From Monosiga brevicollis MX1 (lineage: Eukaryota > Opisthokonta > Choanoflagellata > Craspedida > Salpingoecidae), in assembly GCF_000002865.3 (NCBI RefSeq), contig NW_001865086.1:117836-143768 (forward strand): a stretch of DNA of 25,933 nt, read 5' to 3'. The notes below the pieces were generated by a model. It made no database searches. It saw only the letters and a program-made list of their open reading frames with translations, and was not told the DNA's origin. Shown here in pieces: positions 2,091-25,933 of this stretch. The position numbers were made by a program, and so were the translations under genes. The stretch's first letter is position 1. Each line of letters starts with the position of its first letter.

Positions 2091-3902
2091 ATGTCCAAGC
2101 CCATCTCATCGTTTTTCAGCCCCGTGGGCGTCAAGTCTTCCAGCAAGACATCGGCCAAGCGTGCCCAGGCCGACGTAGACCCTGCAGGTGACCCCGCCTC
2201 CCCCACGGCCAAATCCCCAAAAGGTATGGCACCCGCACCCACATCCACATCCCTCGCCCCCTCCTCCCTCACCCCTCGCACCTCCTTGCTCATCACCCAT
2301 TTTTATCGGCCTTCTGTATCCAACACCCGACAGGAACGCCCTTGAGCCCAGAGCAACAAAAGCAAATTGCCGAGAAACGCCTTGAAGCCGTCCTCAAGCA
2401 ATGCAAGGCCAAAGGTCTTCCCCTGACCGACAGCCTGGCCCCCGACTGGCGCCAAGCCCTCCGTGCCGAGTTTGACAAGCCCTACTACAAACAGGTAGGC
2501 CGTCACGTGCTTGATCGCCTTTTTTTTTTTCCTACTTCATCCCTTCTGCTTCTCTCTGTCTCCTCAACTGATCGCCGTGCCCGCAGCTCATGGAGTTTTT
2601 GACCAAGCAACAAGCCGCCAAAAAGGTCATCTACCCGCCTCGTACGTAAACCCCGAGCCCCTGCCCCTCCTTGGCTCCTCTTTGCCCTGTCCTCAACCTG
2701 TTGTTTTTGTCCTTATTTTTTGCCTGTCGTCACTCATCTGGCCCGTCTGCCGGATCCACTCTTCTGCAGCGGAGATGGTGCACTCGTACAGCCGCGCCTG
2801 CCGCCTGCGCGACGTCAAGGTCGTCATCCTCGGCCAGGTACCCGACAAGCCTGGACAACAAGCCTCGCCTTCCCCCTCTTGAGCCTTGCTCAGCTCACAC
2901 CAACTACCCGTTGCTCCCCACCAGGACCCATATCATGGCCCAGGCCAGGCCCATGGTCTTTGCTTCAGTGTGCTCAAGGGCGTCGCCAGTACGTTGGCCT
3001 GTCTCTGCTTGGCCCTTGGCCATTCTCCGCTCGGTCGCTCGGTCGATCCTCTGCTGCTACTTGCGCTGCCTCATTTCTCCTGCAACTCCCGACCCAGTTC
3101 CCGGTAGCCTCCGCAACATTTACAAAGAGCTGACAGCGGACATTGATGGGTTTGTGGCCCCCAAGCACGGCTATCTCCAATCCTGGGCCGATCAGGGTAC
3201 GCTCCTCGTCTTATCTTGCTTTTGAGTCTTGTTTTGTTTTTTGTGTTTTGTTATCTATTTTTTTTTTTTTTCCTTCCTCTCTGCTCCCCTCCGCTGTGCT
3301 CATCTTCATCCACGGCACGGTCAGGTGTGCTGATGCTCAACGCGTGTTTGACGGTGGAGCACAAGCAGCCCAACTCCCATGCAGGACAGGTGAGACTTGA
3401 AACAGGCCGTGTGTTTCCTCTCGCAACAGTGGGCCGCGCTTTGCTCACGCTGATGATGAAATTAGGGTTGGGAAAAATACACCGACGCCGTCATTGCATG
3501 GATCAGCAAAAACCTCAACAACGTTGTCTTTATTCTCTGGGGCAATTATGCCAAGAAGAAAGGCAGCAAAGTCGATCAGGTGCGCTGCTACCCCACTGGG
3601 TCCCGCTCGCGCCTCGCCAAGACTGACCAGGCTCTCGCATGCCGCGTGTTCGATGTTGCTCCGTGTAGAAGCGCCACTGTGTCCTCGCTGGCGCCCACCC
3701 GTCACCCCTCTCTGCCACCAAGTACTTTGGTGTGTTGCTCAACTCATGCGCGAACCGAATCCAAAGGCGATTGTTGGCACGTCACTCACTTGTTTTTGAC
3801 TTGGTGTGGGCTGCAGGCTGCCGGCACTTTAGCCGGGCCAACGAGTACTTGAAAAAGCACGGCAAAAAGCCCATCAACTGGAGCTCCGTTTCTGACGCAT
3901 AG
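2091..3902 (+). CDS. UNG: Uracil-DNA glycosylase, UNG2-like (10 exons, 301 aa)
   Basis: This enzyme removes uracil from DNA at the start of base excision repair. Exons: 2091-2223, 2334-2494, 2587-2641, 2770-2837, 2925-2988, 3098-3196, 3325-3389, 3466-3579, 3669-3729 and 3817-3902; every junction is GT/AG and in frame. The product follows human UNG2 along its length (301 against 313 residues). The water-activating motif GQDPYHGP is present, with catalytic Asp at about residue 140, and is split exactly by intron 4. The uracil-binding LNACLTV has Asn at about 199. The DNA-intercalation loop is AHPSPLS with His at about 263. The C-terminus reads [12 protein letters not shown] and ends KKPINW plus a short tail. 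The ATG at 2091 was chosen because it gives [11 protein letters not shown], which resembles the PCNA-binding start of UNG2, although the usual Gln is missing. No mitochondrial presequence is visible, so a nuclear form is inferred. Confidence 0.96.
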
Positions 3903-5135: not shown

Positions 5136-6375
5136 ATGACGCGTTCACGACATGGCAGCAGCAGTACGGCCAATGGCTCGGGCGAGGCGCCCGCAAAGCC
5201 CAAGCCCTGGCTCTGGATTATTAGCTACATGTTTTTCGCTGGTCTGTTGTCCCCTCGACCCTGACTCTGCCTTTGATGCTCTCCCTGGACCGATGATCAC
5301 TCACAGCACAGTTGATCGCCGGCGTTGTTTCAGGCATGGACTCGATCTTGCTGCACGTGAATGACCGCGGCGACTGGCAGCCGCCCACAGCCCTCTATCT
5401 CTTTGTGTTCATGGTGGGCGAGATGATGATCCTGCTGCCCTGCGCCCTGCTGCTCCGCAGCCGCGGTCGCGGTGGGTTCAAGGCACCGGCCGTGCGCACC
5501 GGTTTCATGGCTGGTGCGCTCAACGGCATTGGCGTTCTGGGCTTTGTCGCCCTCAACGGCATTGAAGAGGGTGAAGCCTCTAGCATCGCCCCCTTTAGTT
5601 CCCTCTACGTCCTCATTCCCATTCTCTACGGCCTCATTGTCCGGCGCGAGAAGCTCACCGCCCAAAAGGCCATCGGGGTTACCGTCGGCGTCCTCTCTAC
5701 CGTCAGCTTTATTTACAGCGGCTCCATCCCTCTCGGGGTCAATCGCCCCGACATTGTCCTTGCTGCCATGGCCTGCTTTGTTGGTGCGTTGCCACAGTAT
5801 TCCAGACCCCCTCTCCCTTGTGGACATGCCCACAAGCATGGCCACACCTCGATACACATCCACACGCGCGCGCGCCTACATACACACACAGATGCCAATG
5901 CAATTTGACATCCATTTCCATGTGGCGCTCATGTTTTACTCTCGTGTTTGCCTCTGTCCTAGGTTGGGGTGGGTGCATTCCATTTTATCACCACATGTCA
6001 ACGTGGCCCGAGAGTAGCTTTGCCGCAGCCTACATTGTCAACATCCTGACCTTTGGGATGGTGGGTCTGGTGCCCACTCTGTTCACGGCGCCCATGCTGC
6101 CCGACGTCCGAGAGCTGGGCATGCTGGAAATTTTCAACCGCTCCAGAAACCTCTTGGGCGCCGGTGCTTGCGACGGCCTGTCCTCCCTGGCCTTTATTGC
6201 CATGTCCGCTGCCTACCCGGAAGACTCGGTTGTCGTCGGTACCCTCTCCAGCCTCTACGTCATCTTCCCCACCGTTGTTGGCCTGCTTTGGCTAGGTGAA
6301 TCTCGGACCACGGGCAAGATTGTTGCCGTGGCCCTTGGTCTCTTGTCCTCGGGTCTCCTAAGCGCCGAGGCCTGA
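5136..6375 (+). CDS. EamA/DMT-type multi-pass transporter (3 exons, 322 aa)
   Basis: Exons are 5136-5241, 5334-5783 and 5963-6375, all GT/AG and in frame. After a hydrophilic Ser/Gly/Lys N-terminus of about 27 residues the protein is almost entirely hydrophobic, consistent with about ten membrane helices. It shows the internal duplication typical of the drug/metabolite transporter superfamily: the first half ends with SSLYVLIPILYGLIVRREKL followed by a Gly-rich helix, and the second half ends with the parallel LSSLYVIFPTVVGLLWLGES followed by another Gly-rich helix. Length fits a two-EamA-domain carrier. The substrate cannot be read from sequence. For exon 2 the acceptor at 5333 is preferred over the nearby one at 5311 because only the former keeps frame with exon 1. 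The gene is convergent with the small membrane-protein gene downstream. Confidence 0.85.
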
Positions 6376-12120: not shown

Positions 12121-13562
12121 CTAGCTGGGCCGTGGTTCAGGTGTGGGTGTGTGAAAAGCGGCCATGTAGTCGCTTAAAGTTGGAATGGTCAGGCGCTCGT
12201 AAAAGTACTTGGCCACAGGACTGGACTGCTCGTCACACACGATCATGTTGCTGAGAAGGACTGCCACGTACAGGTAGCCGGTAACTGGTCGCATCTGCAT
12301 GCGCATGGCGCGAGGATTGGCAAGGCCTTCGAAGCGAGAGAATACCCCAGTTCCCGGTGCGCCAAAGCACCAATCAACGGCCACTCTTACGCTGTCGAGC
12401 TGTTGGTCGTGAGCCACGGCTTCCTGCTCGTTGTTTGCCCCTCGCCTAGTCTGTGCGGGTCGCACAATGCGCTTCGACTCGGGGTGCGCCTGGTCACCCA
12501 GGATACACCACGGCGCTCGCTCCGGCCACAGCTGACCAAGGCGTCCCTCAAGACCCAAGCTCGCCAGCATGACGGCATCCTGCGTGGGACCTGAGGGTAG
12601 GCAGATGGTTGCAATGAGGTTGTGGTATGTGAGTTTGCGCTCGGCTCAATCAAGGGTAGGCTGACCTCGAAACGGCCCATAAAAGCTGATGATGATGCCG
12701 TTGGGCGCCAAAACTGCTTGATATCGGAGCGCGTGCGCCTGACATGGCAGCAGCACGTGAGCGACAAATGATTGCGAGACCAAGGACATGCTACGCATGC
12801 ACCCACCTTGTCCTTGCCAACGCAGAACCATCGCTGGGCCTCGCCTGCGGGTCGGGCGATATGATGGTCGGTTCGGTCAATAAAGGCACAGATGCCTGCA
12901 GTTGGAGGATGGCGGGTTGCCACAGCAGCTGCGCCTTGCTTGGCCCAGCTTGGTTGAAAGTAGCGCTCGTCAAAGTTCATCCGCTCCTGTACCAGCGCTG
13001 TCAAAGCCAGGACAAACGTGTTGACGACCTTTGACAGTTTTTGCGAGGTCCATGATAAGTTGAGCTCTCGCACGGCGTCCACCAGTCGCAAGGGGCGGTG
13101 GAACAGGGTCAGAAAGGCGACCAATGCGTCTCGCACAGGTACAGGCACGGCGTTGTCTGGTAGGGCGGGCAAACTGGCAGCAATGCGTTCAAACTGCGCA
13201 CGATCGGCCAAGCCACACACTCGCGGCCACCAGGCGTCGTCCAACAGATCAAAAACGACGTGAGGCGTGCCCCCTGCGCAGATGGCAGACTTGTAGTGCG
13301 GGTAGAGACTCCAAAGCTCGGCTTGTAGGCCACGCGCTAGTTCTGAGGCCATTATCAGTCCCTCCCGGATGCCCTCCTCGTTGATTTGACCCAGATTTTC
13401 GAGATGGCTCAGGTAATCAACAACGAGGTCGATGGTAGCGAGGTATAGCACATTTCCGTTGCGCTCAATCTCTCGAATGATGGCGCATTTTTGGCTTGTC
13501 GTCAGACGCACATCCCGCTCCACGCGCCGGCGCGGTATCCGTCTGGTTCGCGGCCGCGCCAT
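12121..13562 (-). CDS. PIF/Harbinger-type DDE transposase or domesticated derivative (3 exons, 432 aa)
   Basis: Exons are 13562-12807, 12738-12666 and 12590-12121, GT/AG and in frame, with no internal stop. A basic N-terminus (MARPRTRRIPRRRVERD) is followed by a helical region. A helix-turn-helix-like segment ends at about residue 190 (LVDAVRELNLSWTSQKLSKV). The catalytic domain begins at AFIDRTDHHIARP with Asp229. It continues as YQAVLAPNGIIISFYGPFRG and PTQDAVML, then CILGDQAHP with Asp309, and VRVAVDWCFG, where Asp349 sits at the position usually held by Glu. The order and spacing match Harbinger/DDE_Tnp_4 enzymes, but GDPAYP has become GDQAHP. Intact frame, spliced structure and no visible terminal repeats suggest either a recent copy or a host-recruited protein of the HARBI1 kind. 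No Myb-like partner gene is in the window. The ATG at 13562 is the first in frame. Confidence 0.82.
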
Positions 13563-13857
13563 GCTTTTTGCCTGTCGTAATGCCCAAGGTGATAATGATA
13601 ATACCACTGATCAACAGCCAAGCACACTGCGTTGCGCGGTCGGCGGGTGGCGTGAGTGACAGTAGGCGGCTGGGCCACAGCAAGCAGCACAGCCCGGGCC
13701 TGGGCGTTCGCCATCATCCTGGAGCCCATCACGGTCAACAACGGGACGAGCGAACACAGTGACAATCACGCAAATCAATTGTCAGAAAAAACAAAATGAT
13801 AATTAAATCCATGTTCTATATATGTAATATTATGATCAGCAGACTTCAACAAGTGAT
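13563..13857. other. Gap between transposase start and tRNA-Asn copy 3
   Basis: This should contain the transposase-gene promoter (reading left) and the upstream region of tRNA copy 3 (reading right). No further gene is supported. The last ~45 bases carry TATATAT at 13817-13823 (-41 to -35) and TTCAACAAGTGAT abutting the tRNA, matching copy 1. Confidence 0.5.
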
Positions 13858-14800: not shown

Positions 14801-14984
14801 GAAGAAGGACATGAAGCACAGTCATTGAGCGCGCGCCTCGCACTTGTCTGACCAACTTTTCTTGGACGCGCGTTGCCATGAGCTTAAAGCTGGCTCGCTC
14901 GCCGTCAGGAATGGTGGCTCACATACCCGGGCGGGGGATAAGATTGATGTGACTGAAGGGGCAGTTAGCCAACGGGCTTGTAAC

Positions 14985-15315
14985 GTCATGGCAGGCAACG
15001 AGGCAGTACACGTTGTACGTTCAAGCGCCAGTTGTGCGGTGCTTTGGAAACCACTTGTAACAGGCGAGCTGTCATGTCGGGCAAAGGGGCGATACAGGTT
15101 GTACGTTCACAAGCCCCAATTTTGTGGTGCTCTAGAAGCTGCTCGTAACGGGTCATGTTTGGCAAAGGGGCAGTACACGTTGTACGTACACAAGCCCCAG
15201 TTTTACAGCACCTTGGAAGCTGCTCGTAACAGGCGAGCTGTCATGCCAGGCAAAGGGGCAGTCCACGTTGATACGAACACAAGCTTGACGGCGCTTTGGA
15301 ATTTGCTTGTAAGAC
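14985..15315 (+). repeat. Diverged ~85-bp tandem repeat, four units
   Basis: Units start at GTCATG at 14985, 15071, 15152 and 15240, so periods are 86, 81 and 88 bases. Each unit contains a GGCAAAGGGGCAGTACACGTTGTACGT-like core (interrupted by differences), then CACAAGCCCCAGTTTT, then a TTGGAAGCTGCTCGTAAC-like end. A partial unit end (GGGCTTGTAAC) precedes the first. The core includes the palindrome GTACACGTTGTAC-like ACGT. The period is not a multiple of three, so the array is unlikely to encode protein repeats. No known satellite is recognised. Confidence 0.8.
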
Positions 15316-15683
15316 TGTTGTTGTTTTGACTTTCCTCTCCGAAAATAAAAAAGTAAAAAAGAAGAAGAACAAGGTGTAAACGTGTGTGTGTGTGTGTTGC
15401 TTGCATTTTCCTTCTTCTGGCCTCTCTCTTTGGCTTGTTGCCATTGCTTTTGCTTTTGATCTTCTTCTTCTTCTGCTTCTTGTTGGTGTTGCCCTTTCTT
15501 GGCAGCGGTCTCGGTATCAAAATTGGCATCGGCGGGCTCCTTGATGTGTCTTGCTTTGTGTGTGTGTGCGTGGTGACTGATCGCTTGTGCTTGGTACGGG
15601 ACTTTCCTGGTCGGGGCCTTGCAGCGACGCCAGAACGTTTTGATTGAAAGCACCGATGCCATTTTTTTGTTTTTTGCTTTCAG

Positions 15684-15779
15684 TTGACCTCACTGATCTC
15701 ACCTCGCAGTCGACAACGTGCGCTGGGCAACCAAGTACACCTGCCCTCGCAACTGTCATCGAGAACTGTTAACCAAAAG
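15684..15779 (+). other. Isolated exon-like segment, possible 5' exon
   Basis: A strong 3' splice site (T-rich, then GCTTTCAG at 15676-15683) and a consensus 5' splice site (AAG/GTGAGT at 15777-15785) bracket 96 bases that are open in one frame for 32 codons. It lies 204 bases before the ATG of the ankyrin-kinase-PARP gene on the same strand. It may be a 5' UTR exon of that gene or an exon of an alternative N-terminus. I could not find a coding partner exon upstream. Confidence 0.3.
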
Positions 15780-15983
15780 GTGAGTCGTTTGGTGCACCAG
15801 GCAGAGAAGAGCAAGGAGCCCGCTGACCGGCTGCCGTTTTGGAAGCGCGCGCCTGTCGGATCCCAGTCCGAATTCCGGGTTGTCAGACGAGTTGTACTTG
15901 GAGGGGGCTCATGAGATTGGTGATAGATAGAGAAGCAAGCAAAGCGGTTTGAAGCGGATGGTGAATAGAGAGATACCGTTGCC

Positions 15984-17570
15984 ATGAGTGCTGATGGAGA
16001 GCAGCTGTTCAGTGCGTGTTGTTCATCAGATCCACAAAAGGCGCTGCAGCTGTTGACCAGTTGGGACCAACAACGTATACGAGATGCTGCCCAATACAAA
16101 GGTGGTTGGGTACGTATGCTGTTTGGTATGATGTTGTGTGATACTGGTTACACTTTGAATATGTCACTGGATGGGGTGACGTTATGGTATAACATGGGAC
16201 ATATACTGCATGTTTGCATTTTGCCACAGATTGGCCATACACCACTGCACGGGGCCTGCATTAACGGTCATGACAAGGTGGTGGAGATGCTGTTGAAGCA
16301 CGGTGTTGATACTAAAGCCAAGGACAACGTCAGTACAGTACCTCCCTCTTCCCCCCCTTTACCCCCCCCTATGATGATGCACCCGTACCCCATGATGATG
16401 ATGATGATGATGCTGCTGTACCTGTACGTCATGCTGATGCATCATCCCACAGGGTGGCCGTACACCACTGCACGATGCCTGCGATAACGGTCATGACAAG
16501 GTGGTGGAGATGCTGTTGCAGCACGGTGCTGATGCTAAAGCCAAGGACAACTCGGTCAGTACAGTACCTCCCTCTTCCCCCCTTTACCCCCCCTATGATG
16601 CTGCACCCGTACCCCATGATGATGATGATGCTGATGCTGTACGTCATGCTGATGCATCATCCCACAGAATGGCTATACACCACTGCACAATGCCTGCTAT
16701 CACGGTCATGTCAAGGTGGTGGAGATGCTGTTGAAGCACGGTGCTGATACTGAAGCCAAGACCAACGTCAGTACAGCACCTCCCTCTTCCCCCCTTTACC
16801 CCCCTCTATGATGGTGCACCCGTACCCCATGATGATGATGATGCTGTACCTGTACGTCATGCTGATGCATCATCCCACAGGGTGGCCAAACACCACTGCA
16901 CTATGCCTGCGATAACGGTCATGACAAGGTGGTGGAGATGCTGTTGAAGCACGGTGTTGATACTGAAGCCAAGGACAACGTCAGTACAGTACCTCCCTCT
17001 TTCCCCCCTTTACCCCCCCTATGATTTTGCACCTGTACCTCATGATGATGATGCTGATGCTGTACCTGTACGTCATGCTGATGCATCATCCCACAGGGTG
17101 GCTATACACCACTGCACGGGGCCTGCATTAAGGGTCAAGTCAAGGTGGTGAAGATGCTGTTGAAGCACGGTGTTGATACTGAAGCCAAGGACAACGTCAG
17201 TACAGTACCTCCCTCTTCCCCCCTTTACCCCTCTGACTGCTGCTCCTGCTCCCGCTGCCCCGTCGCCTTTGCCCCCGTCCCTCCTCTCCGCTACACCCTG
17301 CCCACCCGTGCGCGTCCGTTCTTCCCCCCTGACTCCTTGTCTTCTTTCCCGCTGTCCCTCTTCTTTCCCTTTTTTTCTTCCGCGCTTTGCCGGTGCTCCC
17401 CGCGCCCCGCCCTGCTCCCGCTGGTGTCTTCCGCCTGCCGTTTTCGCTCTCCCCTTTTTCTGATCCATCCCCAGCCCCTTGCCATCACGCTTCTGCCTCC
17501 CTCGCACGCTCAAGCGACTTTCGGTGGCCGTGCCTTCACGTTTGCATCCAACACACGCGCCGTTTCTTTC

Positions 17571-17604
<34 letters not shown>

Positions 17605-20600
17605 CTTCTCTCCAAGCGCGCCTCCGTTCGGACCCCTGTTACCTGCCCGCACCATTTGCACACCACTCGCGCGTCTGGCGGCTCCGGCCCACTTCAAAGC
17701 ATTGTCACCTCGCCTTTGTTATGTAAAAGCAAATGCGCGTCGCTGCCCACCTCACACGCTCAAATCACATGTTCTCAGGGTGGCGAAACGCCCCTCGATT
17801 ACGGACGTCTATGCGGGCATGGCGACAAGCTGGAGCCCGTGTTTGCTGCTCACGAGGCTCGCCTATCACAACCACCCGCACCACTCGCTCCGCCCACGCC
17901 GGCACCGCCTTCCGCCTGGCTACCGCCTCTGCCCACCACCCCCACCCTCGAGGTGAGCCTGCTCCCCCATCTTGTTTCCCCCAATGCATTTACTACCCCA
18001 ATTCCCACGGCCTCATCCAACCTAATCACGACCAATGGCACCACAACCCTCCATTAGACCACGGCCTCTGTTGTGGTGGCGGTGGACAAGTGGCTCAAGC
18101 CGCTCTTGCCCACGCGCACCACCAGCCATACTCTCCCCCACCTCGATGCCTTTATCAGAGGTGCCGCCAAACAAAACCCCAATCTTGCAACGGCGGTTGC
18201 GGACATCCAGATGACCATCGATGAAGCGCCACCAGAGTTTCCCGTCATGGATTGGGCTGCCTTCCAGACGACTACCACCCAGGCTCTCAACACACTCGAC
18301 CAGGCACTGGCAGCGCCCGAAGCGTTAAGCAACCGCTTGAAGCAATTGGACCCCAACACTGACAACCTAGAATCAGTGCTGCAAGAGCTGCACGGTGTCA
18401 CTGCTGGTTTTGAGCTGCAGCCGGTGCTTCTCGAGCTTCAGGACGTGCTGGCAGCGTGCCCCGCTCCACCCACCACGCCAGTGATCGCGCCCAAGAAGCC
18501 ACCCACCGACCTAGCTTCGGCCCTGAGAAAAGTCATCGTTCTGAGCGGCGTGGAACCCAAGCGTCAGGAGCTGCTCACCAGCGCCAACAGCAACCTCAAG
18601 CGCCTCGTGCTGGCCTTGATTGATGCCCTGGGCGCCGTGGCAAGAGCGGGAACTACCGACACAATTCATCGCGTGGAGACGCTACGGCAGTGCGCGCAAT
18701 GCGTGGATGCAAGTGCACCACCTCCAGCCGAGGCATTGCCCGGGGCCTGGGAGGAGCTGTGCCAAGCGCACGAGAAGCTGAGCCTGCTCGAGCAGAACGG
18801 TCTTGAGCAAATTGCTCAGTGGCAACCACCTCCAGACTACGAGCATCAGGATTGGTACTTGGCGTTTGTGCACCACGAGTCGCAAGCTCTGCTGCAGCAG
18901 TTGCAAGACATGATCGACTGGCAGGCCACGACGCTCTCCGTGTTGACCTCGTGCATGAGTCACGTGGACAGCTTGACCCAAGGCGTTGATGATGAATTGG
19001 TTGCTGCCAACGAGGAACTGACCAAGGTGGAGAATGAGATGCAAGGTATCAGCGCGGCATTGCAGCTGGTGCCCGAAGCTGTTCGGTCTGGTCTCGAGCA
19101 GGAACTCAAAAAGCTAGAAACGCGACGCGACACCTTGCGACAACAGTTATCAGATCAGCCACACGTGGACCACGTCGCAGAGCTCGCCCAGCTGCTGTAC
19201 CAACACTTTCCAGCGCTGCTGGTCTTTCTGCACCCTGAACAAAGCACGCTGGGAGCGCGCCTCCGCACAGTGCTTGGGCCCGACCTTCCAGCCAGTCTTA
19301 TCTTGGAGGCCATGACCGAAGTGGATCGCACATTGTCGCTCTCCAGCCTGGGCCAGCTTGATCTTCATTACAACCAAAACCACAAGGTGTACAAGGCCCG
19401 TGCCGCGCTGAAAGATTCTGGGGAACAAGATTTGGCCGTCAAGGAGTATGCATTTGCTCGGCAACACAAGCAGGATCAGTGCCGTACATTCTTGCGCGAG
19501 CTTCGCGCCATGCGCCAGCTTCAGCACCCACACATCATCCCGGTCCTCGGCGCGCTCGTGGACGTACACAGTGGCCACCCGAGCGCCTACCTGGTGCAGC
19601 CATGGTGTGCACAGGGTGATTTGCAGCAGTGGCTCAGCAAGGCACGGCACCTGGCCACCTCGACCGTGATTTCGAATCTGATGAATCAGCTGCGCACGGC
19701 GCTGGCGTTTATGCATAGCAAGGGCTTGGTGCATCGGGATGTCAAGCTGAGCAACATCATGTTGGACGGTGCAGAGGACCAACCTGTTGTGCGGCTGGGC
19801 GATTTTGACATTGCCAAGGCCGCCGCTGAAGCCACCATGCTACCATCTACGGCCACCGCATCGTCGGGCACGGCGGGCTATGTGGCACCGGAGGTGCTAT
19901 TTGGAATGGGTCGTGTGGGAGCACGCCCGGCACAGGATGCCTTTTCCTTTGGCTGCGTTCTCTACAACACGTACATGTATCCACAAACGGTGCCACCTGC
20001 TCAATCGCGAACCGATGAGGTTGTGGGTCATTGCAGATGGAATTTCCAAGCGGGAGATGGTGCCTTTAGCTTTCCTCATTTGGCGGCCGAGGTCAGTCAA
20101 TTATTATTTTTTTCTCTATGATTTTAAGACGCTCTGGTTGTCGTCGTCGTCGTCGTTGTTGTTGTAGTTGCTCATACCTGTGTTTCTGTGCAGATGTGCG
20201 ACATAGTGGGCGATCTGTACAAGGAAACGCGAGCCTTGCTGGCAGCAGATCCAAAGCAACGGCCAAGCCTTTTCAGCGCCGGGCAAATCGCAGAACGACC
20301 TGTCACGACCCAAGTTGTTGGGCCAGCCATTGATGTCTTGCGCGATGCGCCCGAGCTCATTTCAGAGGTGCGTTGCTTGTGATTTTTTTTTCTCTCTTCC
20401 ACGAATCGTCTGATTTGAACCTACTGGGTGGCTAGGTGGGTGAGCTACTGAAGCAGCTGAACACCGATGGGCGGGGACCAGCGAATATCACAGTGCAACG
20501 AGTGGAGCGCGTGCACAACCCCGTGCTGTGGGAGCGCTACAGCGTCAAGCGACGCGAAATGTTGCATTGCATCAAAAGTCAGGAGCACTATGATCAACTC

Positions 20601-21262
20601 CAAACGTCCACATTAAATGCACCCTCGGGCTCTCCAGCTTTGTTTCGAGATACACCCTGTCAAGAGCGCTTGTTGCTTCACGGCATCGCCCCTGACACAA
20701 TGTTGCGCGACAAGATTGTGCGCCTGGGCTTTGACTATCGTTTCGCCGGTCGCCGCAGGGGCCACAAGTATGGTCTTGGCGTTTACTTGGCCGACCATCC
20801 TAGAAAGGTGTGGTCGAATTGTTGGTTTGCAGGGTTCTACGTGTGTGTCCTCACATTGCTTTTTTGGCGCTGTGTGTCTACTTGAACCTGGGTGTAGAGT
20901 CACCATTATGCGACGCCCGGAGCAAACGGCGAGCGGATGCTCATTATTACGCGAGCCCTGTTGGGCCGTGCCTATGTCCATCCTTCGCCTCGTTCTCGGG
21001 CACTGGCTCCTCCACTGCTGCCCGCTGCACCCAACAACGAGCGGTTCGTCGAACAAAATTTTCTGATTCTGGCATGCTGCCCGACGTCTCCTGCCCGCCT
21101 TCTGCCCGTCTTCTGACCTAGCCTGACCTAACCGCCACGTCTGCCTTTTCTTTTAGATATGATTCGGTCATCGCGACGCCGCTCAATGCGTTTCGCGAGG
21201 TGATTATCTTTGAGAATGCTCAAATCTATCCTGAGCTGGTGGTGTACTACACGGCCGATTAG
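15984..21262 (+). CDS. Ankyrin repeat - protein kinase - PARP fusion protein (12 exons, 1209 aa)
   Basis: Exons: 15984-16109, 16230-16328, 16453-16554, 16668-16766, 16881-16979, 17097-17195, 17779-17952, 18058-20091, 20194-20367, 20436-20807, 20898-21043 and 21157-21262, all GT/AG. All junctions are phase 0 except the last. Residues 43-208 are five ankyrin repeats ([22 protein letters not shown]), one per exon; a weaker sixth opens exon 7, then a Pro-rich linker. Residues ~267-690 are helical, with a likely coiled coil at ~577-635. The kinase domain covers ~698-1000: AVK Lys728, HRDVKLSN (825-832), DFD at 848 in place of DFG, and GTAGYVAPE. The Gly-rich loop is degenerate. The PARP domain is ~1003-1209: LLLHGI His1084, YGLGVYLAD Tyr1119, and [16 protein letters not shown] with Glu1189, the H-Y-E triad of PARP1 and tankyrases. 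It may bind partners through ankyrins and phosphorylate or ADP-ribosylate them; this is inference. The ATG is the first in frame before the ankyrin region. Confidence 0.88.
16230..17195 (+). repeat. Tandem exon-plus-intron repeat encoding the ankyrin array
   Basis: Five units start at 16230, 16453, 16668, 16881 and 17097 (periods 223, 215, 213 and 216). Each is one ankyrin-repeat exon (99 nt, or 102 nt for the second), and the four introns between them are near-identical too. They begin GTCAGTACAG(T/C)ACCTCCCTC, run through C-rich and GATGAT-rich blocks and end CTGATGCATCATCCCACAG. Intron similarity at this level means the units duplicated recently or are being homogenised. Length differences lie mostly in the (GAT)n block. 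Confidence 0.93.
17562..17611 (+). repeat. Polypyrimidine tract inside intron 6 of the ankyrin-kinase-PARP gene
   Basis: A (TTTCT)n run passes into a long T tract within the 583-nt sixth intron (17196-17778), which is several times longer than the other introns of this gene. The first 40 or so bases of the intron match the repeat introns upstream (GTCAGTACAGTACCTCCC), so it began as a normal array intron and was extended by unrelated C/T-rich DNA. Confidence 0.7.
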
Positions 21263-23428: not shown

Positions 23429-25933
23429 ATGCTGCTGCGCCTAGTTTTAACCCTGGCCGTGGCCACCACGGCCGTGCACGCTGTACGTGGATGGGGGACC
23501 AAATTATCTGCAATGTCTTGCAAACCCGGGCTCGAGAAAAATCGGACCGCTCTCACGATCATCGCCCCGCTCACCTGGCTGCTCTGGTCCATGATGTAGT
23601 TTTGCGGCAACGGCGTCATTGGCAATGGCGAGACCTGTGTACGTCCAACCGCGCTCGAGATTGAGACCTTGCCCAGTCACTGCAAAACGACCAAACTCAC
23701 ACGAACCGATCCGGCTCCTCCGTGTTGATAGGATGATGGCAATCGCTTCAACGGCGATGGCTGCTCCGGCGCTTGCATGATTGAGGATCGATTCACTTGC
23801 GTGGGTGGCCAAGAGGAAGGATCACCATCGGTTTGCCTGCCTGATGTGCCCGACTACTGCACCCCCCGGTACGCCGCACACTCGGCTTGTCCAGACTTGT
23901 GAAATTCAGCCGGCACAGCCTCTTGCACTGCCCGCCGGCCTCCTCATCCCTTGCCCATTTTGATTCACCAGGAACCCTTTTACCACGACCACCCGTGGGC
24001 GCCCCGCTACGACCACAACATCCACGCGTCGCCCCATGACGACCACCGCATCCTCCTGCCCTCCCTTTGATCCTTGCAACTGCAAGCCCAATGCCGAGGC
24101 TGAAAACTACTATGATCGTGACGGCTGCCTTCAGTGCCGTTGCGTTGCCACGGGCCCGGTCGAAACCACCACCACACGTCGTCCGGCTACCACCACCACC
24201 ACTACGACGCGCCGCCCAACTACCACCACCACTACGACGCGCCGCCCAACTACCACCACCACCACGCGCCGCCCAACTACCACTACTACCACCACGCGCC
24301 GCCCAACGACGACAACTACTACTCAGGCGCCATGCCCAACATACGATCCCTGCAATTGCAAGCCCAATGCCGAGGCTGAAAATTACTATGATCGTGATGG
24401 CTGCCTCCAATGCCGCTGCGTTGCCACGGGCCCCATCGAAACCACCACCACCACCACTCGTCGGCCGGCCACCACCACCACAACCACCACCACCCACGCT
24501 CCTACCACCACCACTACCACCACACGCCGTGCCCCGACGACGACGACGACCACCACACAGGCCGCACCGGAGACAACGACGACCACCACACGCCGCCCAG
24601 TCACAACCACGCGTCGCGACGACGACAATGATCACAACGGAGATGATGACGACAATGATGACAACGACGCTCAATGCAAGAGCAACCCGCTTGATTACTG
24701 CGAGTAAGCTGCACTTGAATCTCACCCCGTAGTCACACTCTGTGTACCTCATGCCCTGAGGCGTAGTTCTAATGGCTTACAGCAAGGGTTTGACTCACTT
24801 TGATTCGATTTTTTCCATAGCTGCGACTCGACTGAAATTCCCGTCTTGAAGATCAACAACAAGGGCTGCTTGGCTTGCAAGTGCGAAAGCCTGAACGGCG
24901 AAGAAGAAGACGACGACGAGTCTTCCAACTGCAAGCCAAACCGCTGGGATTACTGCGAGTAAGTCTTCATTGGGCCGTCGACCTGTGCGTCCAATCACGA
25001 CCTCGCTCACTTCCTCTGCTTGTTTTGGACTGTGACTCCACAGCTGTGCCTTTGGTGAGGTGGCCGTGCCCAAGATTAACAACAAGGGTTGCGAAGCCTG
25101 CAAGTGAGTGATGGCTTTCCTCGTGTCTGACAGAAATGTGACTGGACGGCTTGCACCCACGCACACATGCACACTGCCCTTGACATAATTTTTGCTCTGC
25201 GCTCACAATTGTGTTGCTTTTTCACCATCAAGGTGTATCACGACCGAGGAATATGAGGAGCAGCGAAATCGCCGCTCGGTCATGGAGCATCCCGATGCTG
25301 ATAAGTTTGACGTGTGCAAGTACGTTTGAAATCTGGCACACCCCTTTGCCATACGAATTTCGTTTCGAGAGCTCATGCTGATACTGACCCGTGATGCAGC
25401 TGCAAGGAAGATGCCGTGAGTGTATGGGAATTCACCAACGATGGCTGCGCCACTTGCTCGTGCAAGCACCCCGCACTTTGCTCGGACAGGATCGAGCTTG
25501 CAACAGGCGACGACTGCTCGGTACGCCCCTGCTTTGGCCACAAGCAAGCATGGCGGGCCATTGCCACCTTGCTGTAGCCAAACACAAGCAAGAGCTCGCA
25601 GCCTTCCACTAACATTGTGCCTGCTGCTCGCACCTATTGTGATACAGTGTGGTACCAGGGATTGCTTTGAATGTGAATACCGCTTTGGCGAGCCCGGGGC
25701 TTGTCAGGTCTGCCGCCGCGGCACAAAGCTGCTTGATGGCGAATGCTTGGACGAGTGCCCCGATGGCTTTGAGGTGGCAGGATCGGGTAAACGTCATTTG
25801 CAATGCGTGCTAGCACCCCCAGCGCCTACTGGTACTTCTACCTCGACCTCGACCTCGACCTCGACCTCGACCTCGTCGTCGTCCTCGTCGTCGTCCTCGT
25901 CGTCAACCTCTTCTTCCTCCTCCTCGTCATCTC
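23429..25933 (+). CDS. Secreted Cys-rich, Thr/Ser-rich matrix-like protein, 5' part (partial)
   Basis: Exons seen: 23429-23482, 23600-23638, 23732-23868, 23972-24703, 24821-24958, 25044-25103, 25233-25319, 25400-25520 and 25648 to the window end, all GT/AG and in frame (about 551 residues, open at the 3' edge). Exon 1 is an 18-residue signal peptide (MLLRLVLTLAVATTAVHA). Residues 19-54 are a DUF4215/Myxococcus-type Cys repeat (CGNGVIGNGETCDDGN, then FNGDGCSGAC). Exon 4 has two near-identical antistasin-like modules (CNCKPNAEAENYY, then DGCLQCRC) set in long Thr runs with RRP punctuation, then an acidic Asp/Asn stretch at ~293-309. Exons 4-6 carry a repeated module (DYCDC, then KINNKGC, then ACKC) split at equivalent phase-2 sites. 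Exon 7 has RNRR, a furin-type site, at ~398-401. Exon 9 is furin-like Cys-rich (CxxC, CPDGF), then a Thr-Ser and poly-Ser tail. Mucin-like O-glycosylation and extracellular matrix or surface location are inferred. Confidence 0.85.
24066..24450 (+). repeat. Duplicated ~110-bp Cys-module cassette
   Basis: The segments at 24066-24175 and 24342-24450 are nearly identical at DNA level and encode the same Cys module (CNCKPNAEAENYYDRDGC). Differences are mainly at third codon positions. The intervening DNA is an (ACC/ACG)n Thr repeat with CGCCGCCCA (RRP) at regular intervals. The spacing of 276 bases is a multiple of three, so the frame is kept. Confidence 0.9.
25841..25933 (+). repeat. (CTCGAC)n hexamer and TCG/TCC Ser repeat
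   Basis: About five CTCGAC hexamers encode Thr-Ser repeats, followed by TCG/TCC/TCT triplets encoding a Ser run that continues past the window edge. Such tracts vary in length by slippage, so length here may differ between isolates or be collapsed in assembly. Confidence 0.85.

Follow-up and report, generated by a model that had tools for sequence, protein, structure and literature searches.

An expanded ankyrin-kinase-PARP gene family with hypervariable ankyrin positions in Monosiga brevicollis, a probable intracellular sensor-effector family

We analyzed a 25,933-nucleotide stretch of the Monosiga brevicollis MX1 genome (contig NW_001865086.1; hereafter, the window), in which a single gene encodes ankyrin repeats, a protein kinase, and a PARP domain in one chain. 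Dozens of gene copies, this one included, share the architecture; across them, the kinase and PARP domains are conserved together and five positions of the ankyrin repeat are hypervariable. These copies probably constitute a diversified, expanded intracellular sensor-effector family with an RNase L-like layout, in which kinase and PARP would be the outputs.

Gene model and domain content

The gene model comprises 12 exons spanning 15984-21262 (+) and yields a product of exactly 1209 aa, with GT/AG at 11/11 introns, the first ten being phase 0 and the last phase 2. The features are as follows.

14900..15983 (+): probable promoter region or 5′ flank; similar DNA at no fewer than about 40 further genomic sites
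15984..16109 (+): exon 1, N-terminal cap (N-cap) with the start Met, aa 1-42; from the model, 106 genome matches, and 6/6 extended paralogous loci
16224..17231 (+): tandem array with period 213 and 89% matches, each unit an exon with its intron
16230..16328 (+): exon 2, ankyrin repeat 1 (each repeat has an exon to itself); gene model and Pfam
16453..16554 (+): exon 3, ankyrin repeat 2; gene model and Pfam
16668..16766 (+): exon 4, ankyrin repeat 3; gene model and Pfam
16881..16979 (+): exon 5, ankyrin repeat 4; gene model and Pfam
17097..17195 (+): exon 6, ankyrin repeat 5; gene model and Pfam
17779..17952 (+): exon 7, final ankyrin repeat in degenerate form, plus a Pro-rich linker; gene model and paralogous loci
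18058..19330 (+): exon 8, first part, predicted helical region of ~410-425 aa, coiled-coil-like over one stretch
19331..20091 (+): exon 8, second part, protein kinase domain; Pfam and residue positions
20194..20367 (+): exon 9, end of the kinase C-lobe and linker; gene model, Pfam, and paralog splice sites
20436..20807 (+): exon 10, linker with an ERVxNxxLWExY-like stretch and first half of the PARP domain, with His1084 (20679-20681)
20898..21043 (+): exon 11, PARP domain with catalytic Tyr1130 (20907-20909); gene model
21157..21262 (+): exon 12, end of the PARP domain with catalytic Glu1189 (21197-21199), and stop; gene model

A first-pass annotation had proposed this combination of domains in one chain, and the 12-exon model and Pfam bear it out. 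All three domains scored above curated cut-offs in the 1209-aa product: Ank at E 4.2e-48 (5 stretches), Pkinase at 6.3e-37 (716-970), and PARP at 3.3e-9 (1007-1151), the last with a modest score of 37 bits.

Exon joins were checked by conservation across 30 loci (the window locus and 29 paralogs), taking the GT/AG nearest the position expected from the protein alignment and counting it if it lay exactly there. Acceptor and donor were exactly placed in 30/30 loci for both exon 8 and exon 9, as were the exon 10 donor and exon 11 acceptor; the exon 10 acceptor was in place in 29/30, being displaced in L010, a broken copy. The exact-position count is inapplicable to the exon 11-12 join because that join splits a codon. 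Exon 8 is a multiple of 3 in length in 30/30 loci and exons 9 and 10 in 29/30 each, while intron lengths show all three remainders modulo 3; introns capable of read-through were found in 1/30 loci between exons 8 and 9, 0/30 between 9 and 10, 0/30 between 10 and 11, and 5/30 (proper phase) between 11 and 12. Exons 9-12 were present after exon 8 in 30/30 loci examined. At the exon 7-8 join, which leads from ankyrin to helical region, 30/30 loci keep the acceptor and 22/29 scored loci the donor (L033 skipped); the seven misses fall where the end of exon 7 had to be extrapolated over a variable, Pro-rich tail. Upstream DNA as far as exon 1 was covered in seven genes, the window gene included, and in L033 the exon 1 match begins at residue 4.

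The kinase residues Lys728 (19441-19443), HRD 825-827 (from 19732), and APE 876-878 are at the positions given by the first-pass annotation, and are accompanied by Glu747, Asn832, and DFD 848-850. In 28 aligned copies (L015 and L034 excluded), the active-kinase residues (VAIK Lys, alpha-C Glu, HRD Asp, catalytic-loop Asn, and DFG Asp) are invariant, and DFD replaces DFG, the Gly being absent from 28/28. By eye, no canonical glycine-rich loop (GxGxxG) was found in a 17-aa stretch of the kinase, and because this loop is degenerate, kinase activity is uncertain. The domain is best explained as a putative Ser/Thr-type kinase. Kinase and PARP domains both retain most catalytic residues.

The PARP domain, previously described as tankyrase-like, proved otherwise. 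By similarity ranking, its best solved relatives are PARP12 (4.3e-13) and PARP15 (about 2e-12), with PARP12/15 E values from 4e-13 to 3e-12 against 1.2e-5 for tankyrase-2, and the ERVxNxxLWExY-like stretch of exon 10 aligns with PARP12/15. The catalytic triad of the window PARP is HYE (His1084, Tyr1130, and Glu1189); across 28 readable copies, 25 have HYE, two HFE, and one YYE. In the same ranking, the catalytic domain falls closest to PARP clade 3 (PARP10, 12, 14, and 15), whose members, in the excerpted text of one study, mostly lack the catalytic Glu, with one exception there (PMC2964712), whereas Glu is kept in 28/28 readable copies here. Macro and WWE domains, which occur in that clade, are not in the Pfam table of the window product.

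The helical region had no convincing relative in Pfam, where any one family matched at most 4/27 members (best match E 2.4e-4), or in the PDB, which yielded short coiled coils at best (E 0.0036); nor did a pattern-led scan of a prokaryote genome collection reveal one. A structure model of exon 8 was moderate in the helical part (pLDDT in blocks of ten, 58-91 for residues 1-220 and 60-87 for residues 261-400) and poor in the kinase part (mean pLDDT 54.9), so we draw no conclusion on fold.

Copy number and genome distribution

The 39.5-Mb genome holds 33 full-length copies of the helical-kinase exon (exon 8), the window copy included, and 33/33 are paired with exon 10. A PARP exon lies 310-558 bp downstream in 46/46 used exon 8 matches that reach the 3′ end, two of them from contig C47; the pairing count used 53/68 exon 8 and 47/57 exon 10 matches, excluding fragments, stop-containing matches, and distant kinase-only matches. 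It is therefore scarcely credible that the gene model is wrong and that the kinase is encoded by a different gene from PARP or from the ankyrins: the model rests on sequence, the PARP score is modest, and the ankyrin-to-body donor is confirmed in 22/29 only, but we rejected this reading on the 46/46 linkage and the splice conservation (30/30 loci bar one acceptor), with frame preserved in exons and not in introns and the N-cap exon present in all 6 extended loci.

The N-cap exon has 106 genome matches, 67 of which do not lead to a kinase-PARP body (all 106 exon 1 matches compared with 56/68 exon 8 matches). Among the listed ankyrin matches (the best 150 of 823 candidates), 60/150 have no body in the 12 kb downstream, counting distances from all 150 to 46/68 exon 8 matches. 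Because so many are unlinked, the N-cap and ankyrin cassette is not specific to the kinase-PARP body. In the stretch of contig C48 in L073, nothing beyond an N-cap and a single weak ankyrin exon was seen by eye. A genome search with the kinase family returned, among the matches listed, many members of the ankyrin-kinase-PARP family and revealed no other bodies.

The 5′ flank (14900..15983) gave at least 61 matches, with 40/79 candidates scored, and many long ones stop at or a few bases from an exon 1 match; the 3′ flank has no long match elsewhere in the genome. Copies visibly broken in exons 8-12 were found at 3/30 loci (L010, L015, and L017). PARP exons lay less than 10 kb from a contig end in 8 of 41 scored cases against 1.2 expected (41/47 exon 10 matches, those on contigs of known length). 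As exact TTAGGG x4 occurs only once, at C29:493423, this clustering could be an effect of assembly.

Ankyrin variability and selection on the body

The ankyrin repeats had also been called tankyrase-like, but their matches to ankyrin-1 and designed ankyrins outrank those to tankyrase. There are 5 full repeats in the window gene, and array size differs among copies, reaching at least 11 in L016. From 87 repeats found, 80 were used, of which 77 were unique. Among these 77, columns 1, 3, 8, 11, and 12 carry 16-17 residues each and have the five highest pN values of the 33 columns. Their pN of 0.64 compares with a whole-repeat pS of 0.29 (bootstrap over genes, 2.2, 1.6-3.5), by NG86, a crude counting method as opposed to a tree-based codon test, and repeat exchange among copies can inflate such site-wise tests. 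Outside these columns the repeat is constrained. In 50 repeat pairs with ≤3 differences in the other 84 bases, a mean of 7.4/15 bases differ in the five codons, and within the window gene, ten repeat pairs differ at 68/150 bases in the five codons vs 42/840 elsewhere. In 60 repeat introns, bases +7 to +30 gave a mean difference of 0.34 (median 0.21, ungapped), so neutral divergence may slightly exceed pS, yet it is below the 0.64 of the five columns. We rejected relaxed constraint as the source of the variability, since pN exceeds pS in these columns. Template-driven or blind hypermutation alone is disfavored, because the third base of column 1 is nearly fixed (T in 69/77 repeats) while the first two bases vary. 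In these alignments, the five positions thus show a diversifying pattern.

In the body, median JC dN/dS over 27 copies was 0.27 for the helical part, 0.14 for the kinase, and 0.18 for the PARP domain, a set that excludes L010, L017, and L034 (exon 8 of L034 is split over two match rows). By this measure, kinase and PARP are both under purifying selection. The closest relative is not the same for the helical, kinase, and PARP parts in 25/27 copies, a pattern that shows mosaic exchange among copies at the level of these comparisons. Given the many copies and hypervariable ankyrin positions, the array more likely serves as a diversified recognition module than as a scaffold with fixed partners.

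Proposed function and alternatives

The claim that no family with this domain order has been described agrees with the literature searched, which in the text available gives no such description. Perina 2014, as excerpted, notes ankyrin with PARP in M. brevicollis, and its two occurrences of "kinase" concern MEK kinases and a reference title (PMC4245714). Clade 1 ankyrin PARPs such as Dictyostelium ADPRT3 likewise join ankyrin and PARP; in the available text, clade 1A PARPs have WGR and PRD domains, neither of which is in the Pfam table here, and no kinase is mentioned (PMC4245714, PMC2964712).

RNase L, described in excerpt as N-terminal ankyrins, a pseudokinase, and an effector nuclease (PMC4730318), shares an N-terminal ankyrin array, a kinase fold, and a C-terminal effector enzyme in one chain. 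It differs in having a pseudokinase and KEN nuclease where the gene here has a kinase with most catalytic residues and a PARP effector, and the M. brevicollis family adds the ~400-aa helical region and dozens of diversified copies. For a fungal NLR ankyrin locus, the available text reports five positively selected positions, suggests concerted evolution, and places selected and polymorphic sites on the concave face with one exception (PMC4986451). Near-identical repeats, five selected positions, and suggested repeat exchange are common to both, the positions themselves not being matched up. In contrast to those NLRs, the ankyrins here are N-terminal, the body is kinase plus PARP, and each repeat has its own exon; no NACHT or NB-ARC was found in the Pfam tables of the family.

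The following account is inferred with regard to expression, binding of ligands, catalytic activities, the sequence of steps, and the immune role. The promoter, N-cap exon, and one-repeat-per-exon ankyrin array would form a ligand-recognizing cassette, acting through the five diverse positions per repeat, and the constant body (helical region, kinase, and PARP) would convert binding into output. By analogy with RNase L, a ligand bound to the ankyrins may release or dimerize the protein via its helical-kinase portion. Autophosphorylation or phosphorylation of a partner by the kinase would follow, with ADP-ribosylation of targets by the PARP domain as the effector step. Recognition of non-self would be the most likely setting, directed at bacteria, at viruses, or at other cells. 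The same sequence trace would result from recognition of mates, kin, or prey, and the sequence does not name the ligand.

It is rather unlikely, though a reading to be taken seriously, that the same machine serves kin, mate, or food-bacteria recognition rather than defense. A Pfam scan, the one search bearing on this, shows no secreted or membrane domain. In animals, PARP12/15-type domains are tied to antiviral roles, which also argues for defense. Diversified recognition families do serve allorecognition, however, fungal HNWD members being incompatibility genes in the excerpted source (PMC4986451), and the data hold nothing that separates defense from such recognition.

We consider it distinctly unlikely that the protein is a tankyrase-like scaffold whose ankyrins hold fixed partners, both phosphorylated and ADP-ribosylated, with the coiled region oligomerizing as SAM does. 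Like tankyrases (PARP clade 4), it has N-terminal ankyrins and a C-terminal PARP within one chain and an HYE triad (PMC2964712, as excerpted), and a helical and coiled region is predicted. Tankyrases carry fifteen to eighteen ankyrin repeats according to the same text (PMC2964712), against the 5 of the window gene; here a kinase is added, the PARP is nearer PARP12/15, and no SAM was found in the 1209-aa product (Pfam scan to E 0.1). We rejected tankyrase membership on SAM, PARP similarity, and repeat number; tankyrase itself was undetected in M. brevicollis and S. rosetta in one study, in the portion available (PMC9688111). Amino-acid change above silent change at five hypervariable positions and dozens of gene copies also speak against a scaffold.

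Improbable, finally, is a self-propagating or passively duplicating family in which the promoter, N-cap, and ankyrin cassette is a recombination hotspot with no selected recognition role. The widely shared 5′ flank beside a 3′ flank without long matches, the N-caps that lack a kinase-PARP body, the excess of PARP exons near contig ends, and the broken loci would fit it. Against it are purifying selection on kinase and PARP, the confinement of amino-acid change above silent change to five ankyrin columns, and the third bases of column 1, which neutral drift or blind hypermutation would not readily give.

Choanoflagellates are the sister group of animals and, to our knowledge, little has been learned of diversified intracellular recognition families in them. 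The sensor-effector reading may extend, tentatively, to an NLR-independent, germline-encoded intracellular receptor repertoire in a unicellular relative of animals. About a hundred N-cap and hypervariable ankyrin cassettes, varied naturally at several positions that engineers vary in designed ankyrins, would be joined to two or more kinds of output body, chiefly a kinase and PARP two-transferase engine that phosphorylates and ADP-ribosylates on recognition. A PARP12/15-like domain retaining the full HYE triad also bears on PARP evolution. The family would offer a natural library akin to designed ankyrins on a constant kinase-PARP body, with dozens of natural binders and a two-enzyme output that is directly assayable. 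If the proposal is true, this would be a new receptor type beside the list headed by NLRs, and would show that a NACHT or NB-ARC switch is not needed for recognition by variable repeats to evolve.

Gene structure and family

The structure proposed in the first-pass annotation held: on the + strand, 15984-21262 reads as a gene of twelve exons, all bordered by canonical GT/AG, whose product of 1209 aa joins ankyrin repeats, a protein kinase, and a PARP domain. The suggested Pfam scan of the product found all three above curated cut-offs: ankyrin repeats (E 4.2e-48), a protein kinase at 716-970 (E 6.3e-37), and a PARP catalytic domain at 1007-1151 (E 3.3e-9). Exon 1 encodes an N-cap. Exons 2-6 each encode one full ankyrin repeat and, with their introns, form a tandem array with a repeat unit of 213 bp; exon 7 encodes a degenerate repeat and a Pro-rich linker. 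Exon 8, a single open frame of 678 codons, encodes a helical region and the greater part of the kinase; the body (exons 8-12) is completed by the rest of the kinase and the PARP domain (exons 10-12). An imperfect 81-bp tandem repeat of 3.5 copies lies in the 5' flank (window 14984-15284). Other features of the window were as follows.

Other features of the window
2603-3626, + strand: exons resembling uracil-DNA glycosylase by eye; two frames scanned singly gave no Pfam match
5297-6375, + strand: EamA-like transporter gene; the first of two overlapping frames, 5297-5905, matches Pfam at cut-off
12390-13610, - strand: 407-codon open frame; no Pfam match
23964-24704, + strand: Thr/Pro-rich repeats and recurring Cys-rich units that by eye resemble a mucin; no Pfam match

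The gene was then used to search its own genome assembly, G000 (39.47 Mb, 57 contigs; window at G000:C9:117836-143768). A PARP search gave 28 matches, several of which coincided in extent with exon 10. With exon 8 as query, 68 rows matched; 33, the window copy included, covered 640 or more of the 678 codons and count as full length, with identities of 55-100%. Exon 10 gave 57 rows. In all 46 exon-8 rows reaching the 3' end, exon 10 lay 310-558 bp downstream on the same strand (median, 345), in a count that left out fragments, rows with stops, and distant kinase-only matches, and used 47 of the 57 exon-10 rows. Two of these 47, G000:C9:9606-9980 and C55:2587257-2587475, had no exon-8 row upstream. 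Exons 9 to 12 followed exon 8 in every one of the 30 loci read, the window's own included. Three loci are visibly broken copies: L010 has a frame break in exon 10, L017 has one in exon 9, and in L015 a stop codon interrupts the frame of exon 8.

Whether the exons share one transcript was tested by conservation of their joins among paralogs, with a script that picked the GT or AG nearest the site expected from the protein alignment; only sites exactly in place were counted. Both acceptor and donor of exons 8 and 9, the donor of exon 10, and the acceptor of exon 11 were in place in 30/30 loci, and the acceptor of exon 10 in 29/30 (exception, L010). Length was divisible by 3 in 30/30 loci for exon 8 and in 29/30 for each of exons 9 and 10, the exceptions being the broken copies L017 and L010, respectively. 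Unlike these exons, the introns showed all remainders on division by 3, and read-through was possible in 1/30 loci between exons 8 and 9, in 0/30 at each of the next two introns, and in proper phase in 5/30 between exons 11 and 12. At the ankyrin-to-body join, the exon 8 acceptor was in place in 30/30 loci and the exon 7 donor in 22 of 29 scored, the misses arising because the end of exon 7 was extrapolated. Exon 1 was present in all six paralogous loci for which more upstream DNA was read, in L033 from residue 4 on. A strict splice-bounded scan, covering only 1.5 kb of upstream DNA in most loci, found ankyrin exons in 27/30; L030 and L035 had ankyrin matches by tblastn, and L029 had no ankyrin exon by either method in the upstream DNA read.

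The combination of ankyrin and PARP was noted in Monosiga brevicollis by Perina and others (PMC4245714), in the text of which "kinase" occurs only for MEK kinases and in one reference title. A tankyrase survey detected none in this species (PMC9688111). In the literature searched, which lacked most subscription papers, we found no account of a family that combines ankyrin, kinase, and PARP.

Constraint and relatives of the kinase-PARP body

Across 27 copies, median JC dN/dS was 0.27 for the helical region, 0.14 for the kinase, and 0.18 for the PARP domain. The kinase residues Lys462, Glu481, H559-R560-D561, Asn566, and D582 (numbered within exon 8; protein positions are 266 higher) were kept in 28/28 aligned copies, which carry DFD where DFG is expected and show no canonical glycine loop by eye. 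As the kinase scored 127.8 bits with Pfam Pkinase versus 98.6 with PK_Tyr_Ser-Thr, we read it as Ser/Thr type. Of 28 readable copies, 25 had HYE as the PARP triad, two had HFE, and one had YYE; in L010 and L017 (2/30), frame breaks made the triad unreadable. Matched by sequence to solved structures, the PARP part came closest to PARP12 (4.3e-13) and PARP15, followed by PARP14 and PARP10 and after these by tankyrase-2 (1.2e-5). Glu1189 of the window protein aligns with an Ile of PARP12. In clade-3 PARPs, this Glu is replaced in most and kept by one member, according to Citarelli and others (PMC2964712). Searches of Pfam, PDB, and the prokaryote genome set gave no convincing relative for the helical region. 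In 25 of 27 copies, the closest relative was not the same for the helical, kinase, and PARP parts, so that the bodies look like mosaics.

Variation concentrated in five ankyrin columns

Length and score filters kept 80 of the 87 repeats found, and 77 of these were unique. Five columns of the 33-codon unit (1, 3, 8, 11, and 12) each held 16 or 17 amino acids, with entropies of 3.2-3.6 bits (next most variable column, 2.2). These were the top five of 33 columns in pN but not in pS, column 1 having the lowest pS of all. Their pN was 0.64 versus a whole-repeat pS of 0.29, a ratio of 2.2 (bootstrap over genes, 1.6-3.5). Two controls, exon 8 silent divergence (~0.5) and differences among 60 repeat introns over bases +7 to +30 (mean, 0.34; median, 0.21), both lay below the five-column value but indicate that pS may understate neutral change. 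The ratio for the remaining 28 columns was 0.53 (0.44-0.69). Among 50 repeat pairs with three or fewer differences in the other 84 bases, a mean of 7.4 of the 15 bases in the five codons differed, and across the ten repeat pairs of the window gene, the figures were 68/150 bases in the five codons and 42/840 elsewhere. So much change in five codons amid near-identical surroundings seems extreme if point mutation and selection are its only causes, and targeted mutation or the exchange of short tracts from a standing pool may play a part.

Columns 1, 3, 11, and 12 belong to a set of seven positions randomized in designed ankyrins, an overlap that is not an independent prediction since those positions were named after the repeats had been seen. 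Column 8 lies outside the seven yet is variable here, whereas designed positions 24, 31, and 33 are not (ratio, 0.38). In a fungal NLR, five ankyrin positions are positively selected, and the selected and polymorphic sites lie on the concave face except one, according to Dyrka and others (PMC4986451).

An apparent 5' cassette and a putative recognition role

The DNA before exon 1 (window 14900-15983) recurs at about 40 other places among the matches listed, and the 3' flank gave short matches only. Exon 1 had 106 matches in the assembly, of which 39 lead into a kinase-PARP body and 67 do not (e.g., five on contig C3 and two each on C40 and C46); the latter may connect to different effector bodies, or else may be fragments. 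Ankyrin rows lay within 12 kb upstream of a body in 90 of 150 cases among the matches listed. These counts suggest that promoter, N-cap, and ankyrin array together form a cassette that has been duplicated and spreads as a unit. Eight of 41 scored exon-10 copies lay within 10 kb of a contig end versus 1.2 expected, an excess that may reflect assembly breaks, as an exact search for four TTAGGG units found one place in the genome.

In the mechanism we propose, the ankyrin array would bind a ligand through its variable columns, and, as an analogy to RNase L suggests (PMC4730318), binding would alter the part made up of helical region and kinase. The kinase and PARP domains, whose residues and constraint point to activity, would then act. 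The same machine could serve to recognize kin, mate, or prey, a role we regard as less likely. The pairing of a fixed body with a variable array is in keeping with recognizing a target that changes, most simply non-self, and it is toward this role for the ankyrin-kinase-PARP machine that we lean.
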